32,950 nucleotides of DNA, from assembly GCA_011045915.1 (NCBI GenBank), contig DSBT01000374.1:1-32950 (forward strand). The letters run 5' to 3'. Positions 30,513-32,950 of the stretch are shown here, one piece after another. This DNA is from Mesotoga infera. GTDB taxonomy: Bacteria; Thermotogota; Thermotogae; Petrotogales; Kosmotogaceae. The position numbers and the translations under genes are program-made. The notes under the pieces were generated by a model. The model made no database searches. It had not been told where the DNA came from and saw only the letters and a program-made list of their open reading frames with translations. How positions within the stretch are numbered: the stretch's first letter is position 1; every line of letters begins with the position of its first letter.

Positions 30513-30785
30513 TTACTGAACTTTCTCTTTTAGCTCTTTACCGGGTCTGAATTTCGGAACCTTCCCGCCGGGAATCTCGATTGCTTCCTTCGTTCTCGGG
30601 TTGACACCTTTTCTTGCCTTTCTCTTTGTAACCTCGAAAGTCCCGAATCCGACGAGTTTTACTTCTTCATTCTTTGATAGCTCTTCCCCAACTACACCGA
30701 TGAAACTATCAACGACGTCTCCGACAAGCTTCTTGGTTGCTCCGGTTCTCTCTGCAAGTTCAGCGATAAGTTCTTTCTTGTTCAC
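30513..30785 (-). CDS. hup: HU family DNA-binding protein
   Basis: HU is a nucleoid protein of 90 residues that bends DNA as a dimer. The full family pattern is visible: MNKKELIAELAERTG, VGFGTFEVTKRKARKGVNPR and the arm end PKFRPGKELKEKV. The start is a GTG five bases after GGGGGTG. It follows trpB2 on the same strand by about 110 bases and is closed by the terminator at 30464-30487. Confidence 0.97.
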   Translation of the reverse strand: MNKKELIAELAERTGATKKLVGDVVDSFIGVVGEELSKNEEVKLVGFGTFEVTKRKARKGVNPRTKEAIEIPGGKVPKFRPGKELKEKVQ

Positions 30786-30896: not shown

Positions 30897-32240
30897 TTAA
30901 CGTTCTGCAACGCTCGATTCACGCAGATCATCGAAGTTAAGAACATCTTTGTGAGCCTCGATAGTGCTGGTGTATGAAGAGAGGTCCAGAGCGCCGTTTC
31001 CGCTTAAAGTGAAGACAATTACCTTCTCTTCTCCATTTTCTCTTGCCTCAATTGCCCTTCGTATAGCACCCGCAATTGCGTGTGTCGATTCCGGTGCCGG
31101 TACTATTCCCTCGGTTGTGGCGAAGAGAAGTCCTGCTTTGAAAGTCTCATCTTGAGGCAAGGCTTCGGGAGTGACAATTCCCTCCTTAACCAATCTTGAA
31201 ACGAGAGGAGCGGCCCCGTGATACCTGAGTCCTCCGGCATGAATTGCGGGTGGAACGAAGTCTCTGCCGAGTGTGTACATCTTCAATAACGGTGTGAAGC
31301 CTGCGGTGTCTCCGCTATCGTAGCGATACTCGCCTTTAGATAGAGTGGGGCAGGACTCCGGCTCGCATGCGACGAACTCGATGTCTTCACCATCGAGCCT
31401 CCTCTTGACAAAGGGTAGAATCGTTCCGCCAAAGTTTGATCCTCCACCATGGCAACCTATGATGGACGATGGCTTCTCGCCGAGTATTTCAAGCTGTTTT
31501 TCGACTTCCAATCCGATTACAGTTTGATGGAGAAGCACGTGATCGAGAACACTTCCCAGAGAATACTTCTTCGTGGTGGAATTCAAGACTATTTCAATGG
31601 CCTCGCTGATTGCCATTCCCAGAGAACCTGAGAAATTCTTCCTGTCCTCAAGAAACTTTCTGCCGCTTTCAGTGTTCTCTCCCGGACTGGGTTCTACTGA
31701 GCCGTTGAACATCTTCATCATGTGTTGTCTCATAGGCTTTGACTGATAGCTGTTTCTGACCATGAAAACTCTCACGGTAAGGCCGAATTTCCTTCCGGCA
31801 TAGGAAAGGGCGCTTCCCCACTGACCTGCACCTGTCTCGGTAGTAAGCTCTGTAACTCCATCGGCCTTGTTGTAGTAGGCCTGGGCGATGGCCGTGTTTG
31901 TTTTATGACTTCCTGTAGGCGAGTTGCCTTCATACTTGTAGTAAATTCTGGCAGGAGTGTTCAGAAACTCCTCAAGAAAAGTTGCTCTTATGAGTGGACT
32001 CGGACGAAAAACCACGTATTCGTCTAGAACAGGTTCGGGGATAGGAATAAACCTCTCTTCGCTCATTTCTTGCTCTACTATTGACTTTGGAAAGATAGCC
32101 ATCATATCTTTGGGGTCGATGACTTCGTTTGTTGCTGGATTCAAAGGCGGATCCATCTTGAATGGCAAGTCAGCCTTTATGTTATACCAGCTTCTTGGCA
32201 ACTCCTCTAATTTCAAATTCACAACAATTCTCTTCTTCAT
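30897..32240 (-). CDS. trpB2: Tryptophan synthase beta chain, TrpB2 type
   Basis: This is a PLP enzyme of 447 residues condensing indole and serine to tryptophan. The PLP lysine is K113 in PTGSHKTNTA, and the phosphate-binding loop is CHGGGSNFGG. ETGAGQWGSALSY carries the catalytic Glu region. The long N-terminus (about 60 extra residues), PRSWYNIKADLPF and NSYQSKPMRQHMM mark the TrpB2 group rather than the TrpB1 that partners TrpA. No trpA or other trp gene lies in the window, so it stands alone, perhaps as an indole-salvage enzyme. It is preceded by GAGGAGGT and by a complete Trp attenuator (32255-32451). Confidence 0.94.
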   Translation of the reverse strand: MKKRIVVNLKLEELPRSWYNIKADLPFKMDPPLNPATNEVIDPKDMMAIFPKSIVEQEMSEERFIPIPEPVLDEYVVFRPSPLIRATFLEEFLNTPARIYYKYEGNSPTGSHKTNTAIAQAYYNKADGVTELTTETGAGQWGSALSYAGRKFGLTVRVFMVRNSYQSKPMRQHMMKMFNGSVEPSPGENTESGRKFLEDRKNFSGSLGMAISEAIEIVLNSTTKKYSLGSVLDHVLLHQTVIGLEVEKQLEILGEKPSSIIGCHGGGSNFGGTILPFVKRRLDGEDIEFVACEPESCPTLSKGEYRYDSGDTAGFTPLLKMYTLGRDFVPPAIHAGGLRYHGAAPLVSRLVKEGIVTPEALPQDETFKAGLLFATTEGIVPAPESTHAIAGAIRRAIEARENGEEKVIVFTLSGNGALDLSSYTSTIEAHKDVLNFDDLRESSVAER

Positions 32241-32254
32241 GCCAGTACCTCCTC

Positions 32255-32291
32255 AAAAAAATAAAGGGGCTCTCCATTGTGAGAGCCCCTT
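32255..32291 (-). terminator. Attenuator terminator before trpB2
   Basis: GGGGCTCTC (32266-32274) and GAGAGCCCC (32281-32289) pair perfectly around a six-base loop, with two more A-T pairs at the base. On the minus strand the stem runs directly into TTTATTTTTTT. It lies in the trpB2 leader, ending about 15 bases before the start codon, so it can only act by stopping transcription before the gene. An alternative pairing of 32284-32291 with 32315-32322 would prevent it from forming. Confidence 0.92.
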
Positions 32292-32306
32292 CAATATGGG
32301 TTTACC

Positions 32307-32354
32307 CTGGTAGCAAAAGGCTAACCCCCACCGAAGGGGCAGCTCCACCACCAG
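32307..32354 (-). promoter_or_regulatory. Trp attenuator: regions 1 and 2
   Basis: CTGGTGG at 32354-32348, which includes the first two Trp codons, can pair with CTACCAG at 32313-32307 (seven pairs, one G-U). Region 2 begins with AGCCTTTT (32322-32315), which can instead pair with AAGGGGCT (32291-32284), eight pairs including two G-U. That second pairing uses the 5' arm of the terminator. A ribosome stalled at the Trp codons hides region 1 and frees region 2 to block the terminator, whereas one that reaches the stop codon covers region 2 and lets the terminator form. Confidence 0.75.
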
Positions 32355-32392
32355 AACATATTTAGTTTATTAAGACATGGACTATCAACCAT
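32321..32392 (-). CDS. trpL: Tryptophan-rich leader peptide of trpB2
   Basis: This 23-codon frame (ATG at 32390-32392, stop TAG at 32321-32323) has three consecutive Trp codons, TGGTGGTGG at 32345-32353. The C-terminal half reads MFWWWSCPFGGG. It has its own ribosome-binding site, GAGGG at 32399-32403, six bases before the ATG, and a promoter just upstream. Trp is normally about one residue in a hundred, so three in a row in so short a frame is strong evidence of a regulatory leader. The stop codon overlaps the RNA segment that would form the antiterminator. The symbol is used by analogy with other trp leaders. Confidence 0.9.
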   Translation of the reverse strand: MVDSPCLNKLNMFWWWSCPFGGG

Positions 32393-32421
32393 ACAAATCC
32401 CTCGCTGATTTAGCTTAAACA

Positions 32422-32451
32422 ACTATACAACTTTCGTATGTTACAAGTCAA
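32422..32451 (-). promoter_or_regulatory. Promoter of the trpL-trpB2 unit
   Basis: On the minus strand TTGACT (32451-32446) and TATAGT (32427-32422) are separated by 18 bases, a strong sigma-70 type promoter with five of six matches in each box. The predicted start near 32415 leaves about 22 bases before the leader ATG, which suits a trp-type leader. Confidence 0.8.
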
Positions 32452-32818: not shown

Positions 32819-32829
32819 CTCTCTAGCTG

Positions 32830-32950
32830 GTGAGTAGCCCAGGGGGATTTCACCCCCAGGCTCTCTCAGAACCGGACTTGAATCTCTCGATTCATCCGGC
32901 TCCCATTATCCAGCCATATAGAATATCCCCATTGTCCAGTGTGCAAATAG
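32830..32950 (-). mobile_element. Group II intron, 3' end (domains V and VI; partial)
   Basis: Read on the minus strand, GAGCCGGATGAATC-GAGA-GATTCAAGTCCGGTTC (about 32868-32902) folds as domain V. It has a lower stem with the AGC triad, an internal bulge, and an upper stem GAATC/GATTC closed by a GAGA tetraloop. Domain VI follows, with AGCC...GGCT and a bulged A (32835) as the likely branch point. The intron should end in AC near 32830. Its 5' part, and any reverse transcriptase, lie beyond the right edge. Confidence 0.8.

Follow-up and report, generated by a model that had tools for sequence, protein, structure and literature searches.

The trpB2 gene of Mesotoga infera is preceded by a leader region that is very probably a ribosome-mediated (trpL-type) transcription attenuator, whose architecture predicts that trpB2 expression would depend on charged tRNA-Trp. 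The leader combines a short open reading frame (ORF) carrying three Trp codons with an intrinsic terminator and two competing RNA pairings. This layout is not a product of chance, because 63 of 73 Thermotogota genomes have it upstream of trpB2, and these 63 span nine families (f1, f2, and f5 to f11).

The trpB2 leader and its host genome

The window is the whole stretch of DNA that was analyzed, 32,950 nucleotides in length, and is contig C374 of a Mesotoga-like genome. On its minus strand, positions 32451 to 32240 carry, in order, a promoter, a Shine-Dalgarno (SD) sequence, the leader ORF, a terminator with its T7 tract, and the ribosome-binding site (RBS) and start codon of trpB2. The promoter (32422 to 32451) is of the sigma-70 type, TTGACT-18-TATAGT, with 10 of 12 matches in a consensus scan, and TTGACT...TATAGT also stands at the equivalent place in other Mesotoga sequences. 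The SD sequence GAGGG (32399 to 32403; anti-SD duplex of -8.0 kcal/mol) is followed by a leader ORF of 23 codons, MVDSPCLNKLNMFWWWSCPFGGG, which runs from the ATG at 32392 to a TAG stop codon (32321 to 32392). Within this ORF, three successive Trp codons, TGGTGGTGG (32345 to 32353), form the putative sensor, and they are retained in every family that has the leader. A terminator scan identified the hairpin TGAAGGGGCTCTC-ACAATG-GAGAGCCCCTTTA (32262 to 32293), which has 13 pairs, seven of them G-C, and is followed by a T tract (U7 in the RNA) at 32255 to 32261.

The first-pass annotation of this DNA had described a promoter, a 23-codon frame with three Trp codons and its own RBS, and an 11-pair terminator with a T tract just before trpB2. 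All of these features were found in place on the minus strand, and the 11 pairs correspond to the uninterrupted Watson-Crick core of the terminator. Folding of the 164-nt leader, which the same annotation had suggested, gave -59.9 kcal/mol (z of -3.49), more stable than 199 of 200 shuffled sequences, with one shuffle as good.

The annotation had further claimed two mutually exclusive RNA pairings, and both could be located. In a protector hairpin (32308 to 32353, minus strand; fold of -24.1 kcal/mol), the Trp codons and the antiterminator 5' strand pair with GGGGGTTAGCC...GCTACCA, such that the three Trp codons are matched to GCTACCA and the CCCC beyond them to GGGG. The same antiterminator 5' strand, GCCCCTTCGGTGGGGGTTAGCC (32319 to 32340), can instead pair with a 3' strand, GGGTAAACCCATATTGAAGGGGC (32285 to 32307), to give a duplex of -34.8 kcal/mol whose first pair lies 5 nt after the last Trp codon. 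The protector hairpin and the antiterminator cannot coexist, and 9 nt of the antiterminator 3' strand belong to the terminator 5' arm.

The putatively regulated gene (30897 to 32240, minus strand) encodes a TrpB-like PLP enzyme of 447 amino acids. It scores above the curated cut-offs of the TrpB2 models (TIGR01415/PRK12391), with 647 bits for TIGR01415 (cut-off 519) and 679 bits for NF009057 (cut-off 366). The named records nearest to the host genome are Mesotoga sp. WOFB36, whose TrpB2 is 97% identical, and Kosmotogaceae metagenome-assembled genomes (MAGs). The earlier description of this trpB2 as solitary was borne out. The gene encodes the one TrpB homologue in a genome that is 99.9% complete, and models for TrpA, TrpC, TrpE, and TrpF found no match in this genome, although each matched in 14 of 14 control genomes. 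Judging from this gene content, TrpB2 appears to be the entire detectable Trp-making capacity of the host, because a single TrpB occurs with no detectable trpA, trpC, trpE, or trpF. With no detectable indole-forming route via TrpC and TrpA, indole is probably supplied from elsewhere. TrpB2 proteins are widespread and carry only the name "TrpB-like" in NCBIfam, and their physiological role is debated, with serine deaminase and indole scavenger among the proposals. For the TrpB2 of Thermotoga, which converts indole to Trp, a KM below 1 uM is cited in PMC11535334.

A pattern scan of the host genome yielded only the trpB2 leader and a second, candidate WWW...TTTTT site at C5:5854 that is absent from a stricter T6 scan. 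Two neighboring features were also observed on the minus strand of the window. A gene for an HU-family DNA-binding protein (30513 to 30785) lies 111 nt downstream of trpB2 and may share a transcript with it. A group II intron domain V (Rfam RF00029, 55.1 bits) lies at 32829 to 32904, 46 nt from the contig end, and the contig may have broken within a repeated intron.

Conservation and compensated pairing across Thermotogota

We collected the regions upstream of trpB2 from Thermotogota genomes and required at least 200 nt of upstream sequence (n = 73). Among the first 73 loci, 72 were usable (G005 has 55 nt upstream) and 62 carried the leader; the addition of G013 gave the final count of 63 of 73. 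The Trp run reads WWW, WWWW, or, once, WYWW (G004). All 62 leaders examined have an intrinsic terminator, equivalently placed between the Trp codons and trpB2, that ends 16 to 84 nt before the gene.

This universal retention of the terminator and its T tract bears on the possibility that the leader ORF acts on trpB2 translation through coupling or reinitiation, with the hairpin serving only as a stability element. Reinitiation from short leader ORFs has been proposed as a common way of boosting translation in bacteria (PMC4833913). However, the leader stop codon in Mesotoga lies 80 nt before the trpB2 start, compared with a usual reinitiation distance of about 10 nt, and a strong hairpin and U7 intervene. 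Furthermore, the trpB2 RBS lies outside the alternative pairings. We regard translational control of this kind as highly unlikely and favor transcription attenuation.

The N-terminal parts of the leader peptides are not conserved between families, whereas the Trp run, the reading frame, and the SD sequence are. Over the 62 genomes, in-frame starts have a mean anti-SD duplex energy of -9.6 kcal/mol, versus -4.5 kcal/mol for other-frame starts in the same stretch; the in-frame starts are better in 48 genomes and worse in three. The Trp codons are paired in the upstream protector hairpin in 61 of 62 genomes. An antiterminator overlapping the terminator 5' arm was likewise found in 61 of 62 by a uniform duplex test, and the remaining leader (G004) has a shifted version in which CTTTCCGAGGC pairs with GCCTCGGAAAG in the terminator arm and loop, as assigned by eye and in agreement with masked folding. 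These leaders therefore contain what characterizes a trpL-type attenuator: a leader ORF with a Trp run, a terminator, an antiterminator that excludes it, and a protector hairpin that includes the Trp codons. The comparison of related upstream regions that the first-pass annotation had called for thus came out in its favor despite wholesale sequence replacement between families, which share the pairings and almost no sequence.

The antiterminator illustrates this replacement. The sequence just after the Trp codons is GCCCCTTC in Mesotoga, CCGGTGGGTGTCTAC in f2, CCGGTATTCTGG in f7, GCCCCGATTCGGTG in f8, CCGGTGGTTGTCC in f9, and CCCCCGATCTG in f10, and in each family its complement is found in the stretch just before and in the terminator 5' arm. 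The mean duplex energy is -28.1 kcal/mol for strands paired with their own partners versus -15.4 kcal/mol for strands paired between families, and none of 20,000 between-family permutations (one genome per family) was as good as the cognate arrangement. The antiterminator helix contains each of the six standard pair types, in a tally that, being fitted to the structure, serves only as an illustration.

An unused leader can survive in a lineage for some time, and the Mesotoga leader might be an inherited relic that persists by descent and no longer regulates. The compensated pairings make this very improbable, as the rest of the leader, apart from the Trp codons and the pairings, has changed in sequence from family to family without loss of complementarity. 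Moreover, Mesotoga retains an intact promoter, SD sequence, frame, and terminator, together with both pairings.

The position of the antiterminator is also constrained, and nearly all genomes place its first pair 5 to 7 nt beyond the last Trp codon. The front edge of a ribosome extends about 13 nt ahead of its A-site codon. When the first Trp codon is modeled in the A site, this edge is predicted to end just before the antiterminator 5' strand. Such locking of the antiterminator to the Trp codons, together with the conserved ORF, SD sequence, and frame, would serve no need of a T-box, TRAP site, or riboswitch that senses tRNA or Trp directly and leaves the ORF incidental. Devices of these types do control trp genes elsewhere, but an Rfam search of the leader returned no match to the T-box covariance model and no other cis-element above threshold, and we consider direct sensing exceedingly improbable here. 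The Rfam Trp_leader model (RF00513) also gave no match in the leader, either at the gathering threshold or at E values up to 10. The putative ribosome-mediated attenuator upstream of trpB2 would represent the same mechanism as RF00513 in a different sequence family.

Ribosome position and the proposed mechanism

The 62 leaders were subjected to masked folding, in which equilibrium structures at 37 C are computed with a ribosome footprint placed on the leader. When the footprint is placed at the first Trp codon, antiterminator formation precedes emergence of the terminator 3' arm in 62 of 62 leaders; when it is placed at the stop codon, this is so in 20 of 62. The expected stop-codon effect is not seen in f2, f9, and parts of f1 and f6, where the stop codon lies further on. 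In f2 and f9, it stands 33 to 63 nt beyond the Trp codons. A ribosome there could scarcely shield the antiterminator strand, and termination in these families must work otherwise. Overall, the computed structures support the attenuation logic for most families.

Two further results qualify this model. The terminator is usually the most stable end state at equilibrium even with a stalled ribosome (mean of 0.80; 0.39 for the window leader), so the model would need co-transcriptional kinetics. In addition, the antiterminator often wins before terminator completion when no footprint is applied (46 of 62 leaders, that of the window among them), which leaves the limb of the model in which the lack of a ribosome leads to termination weak.

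We propose the following sequence of events. RNA polymerase would start at the promoter, and a ribosome would begin to translate the leader ORF. Under a shortage of Trp-tRNA, the ribosome would stall on the three UGG codons and leave the antiterminator 5' strand free to pair with the emerging terminator 5' arm, such that polymerase would continue into trpB2. With ample Trp-tRNA, the ribosome would reach the stop codon and cover the antiterminator strand, and the terminator would form. If no ribosome is present, the protector hairpin could hold the antiterminator strand. TrpB2 would thereby be made when Trp is short, and it would convert indole, probably of external origin, and serine or O-phosphoserine to Trp. 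The first-pass annotation had proposed that attenuation as known in other phyla operates here on a lone TrpB2. Comparative evidence from the Trp run, the terminator, and the compensated pairings now backs this proposal, while its Trp-dependent read-through is a step that we infer.

Distribution, other predicted targets, and known attenuators

Relatives that retain trpB2 and lack the Trp run had been named in advance as evidence against attenuation. Such relatives exist, namely seven genomes of the Thermotoga-like group g35 together with G089, G066, and G068. However, the absence of the leader reads as secondary loss because eight of these 10 genomes (the seven of g35 and G089) have a complete trp operon, as judged by the presence of trpA and trpC; G066 and G068, which lack trpA, do not. 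Of the 62 genomes with a leader, nine carry both trpA and trpC, in contrast to the other 53, a comparison to which we attach no P value because the genomes are related.

Additional targets were sought with a pattern scan of the phylum. A reversed-pattern control revealed many chance matches to this pattern, and therefore sites were counted only if they had a leader ORF, a terminator, and a fitting downstream gene. Trp-run leaders with terminators occur before trpE operons in f2, f7, and f8 (L161, L163, L165, L170, L172, L176, and L177) and before a trpD-like ORF (L162 and L173), where gene names were assigned from position and sequence and not from a family search. They also occur before trpB1 (L179, L180, and L189). 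A WWW leader with a terminator precedes trpS in G037 (L186, G037:C3; TIGR00233, 296 bits), and another precedes genes for two ABC substrate-binding proteins in G018 (L185, G018:C87), at least one of which is TrpX-like (NF041285, 251 bits, below the cut-off of 390). Control by Trp codons is thus not peculiar to the lone TrpB2, as judged from sequence, because trp operons, trpB1, trpS, and a TrpX-like transporter of Thermotogota carry the same predicted device. Separately, a WWW leader ORF and terminator (L187, positions 405 to 513, G002:C43) precede a ferredoxin/aldehyde:ferredoxin oxidoreductase cluster with AFOR domains, which would be an unexpected target for Trp attenuation.

We lean toward a phylum-wide reading in which trp attenuation is old in Thermotogota and has the solitary TrpB2 as its main target, with the sensor kept alongside trpB2 in many operon-less lineages and lost in the operon-keeping Thermotoga.

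Outside Thermotogota, WWW leaders precede a few trpB2 genes, and most of 75 loci have none. The exceptions observed are leader ORFs in Varibaculum (L048 and L059), a record labeled Tissierella (L042), and Bacteroidales (L017 and L054). The Varibaculum and "Tissierella" leaders are nearly alike (IQWWWLA) and are followed by a hairpin and T tract. Two MAGs labeled Nomurabacteria (L063 and L071) have a Trp-containing leader ending in LLRVLE and a terminator-like element, GGTCGCCACTAGGCGATTTTTT, before trpB2.

Like E. coli trpL, the Mesotoga leader has a short ORF with tandem Trp codons, alternative hairpins, and an intrinsic terminator before the structural gene. It differs from trpL, whose geometry we take from general knowledge, in having three Trp codons instead of two and an antiterminator strand that begins 5 to 7 nt after these codons, inside or overlapping the ORF. 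Moreover, it would control one salvage gene, whereas trpL controls a biosynthetic operon (trpEDCBA). Attenuators of trp genes have been described in Proteobacteria. They have also been described in Actinobacteria, where those of Corynebacterium and Streptomyces resemble the Mesotoga leader in their double or triple UGG runs, GC-rich terminators, and conserved complementarity, but sit before trp operons or trpS, including trpS2 (PMC1262725). In that work, "trpB2A" of C. diphtheriae denotes a copy of trpB that shares an operon with trpA, not a demonstrated member of the TrpB2 (COG1350) family. A further likeness is to the trpRBA operon and the YtgCR WWW motif of Chlamydia trachomatis, a Trp non-maker in which indole-to-Trp salvage is turned on when ribosomes fail at WWW (PMC7755916). 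Chlamydia acts in trans via a repressor, whereas the leader described here would act in cis, through a terminator and an antiterminator that belong to the salvage gene.

A 2010 attenuation survey by Lopatovskaya, Seliverstov, and Lyubetsky reportedly may contain predictions for Thermotogae. One cis-regulatory RNA motif survey, whose genome set included 11 Thermotogales, lists known Rfam leaders only (PMC3766115). Our search of the open-access literature found no report of a trp attenuator in Thermotogota or on TrpB2; given the possible predictions in the 2010 survey, priority is uncertain. The mechanism is already known, and what appears to be new from these sequences is its phylum-wide setting and its lone salvage-enzyme target.

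A phylum-wide Trp-codon attenuator would provide independent evidence that TrpB2 supplies Trp in times of shortage, most likely from the indole of neighbors. It would also place classical attenuation in a largely thermophilic phylum that is commonly depicted as early-branching, and in some hosts where the rest of the pathway is missing. Finally, the diverged leaders of Thermotogota offer a ready set for the study of this mechanism.
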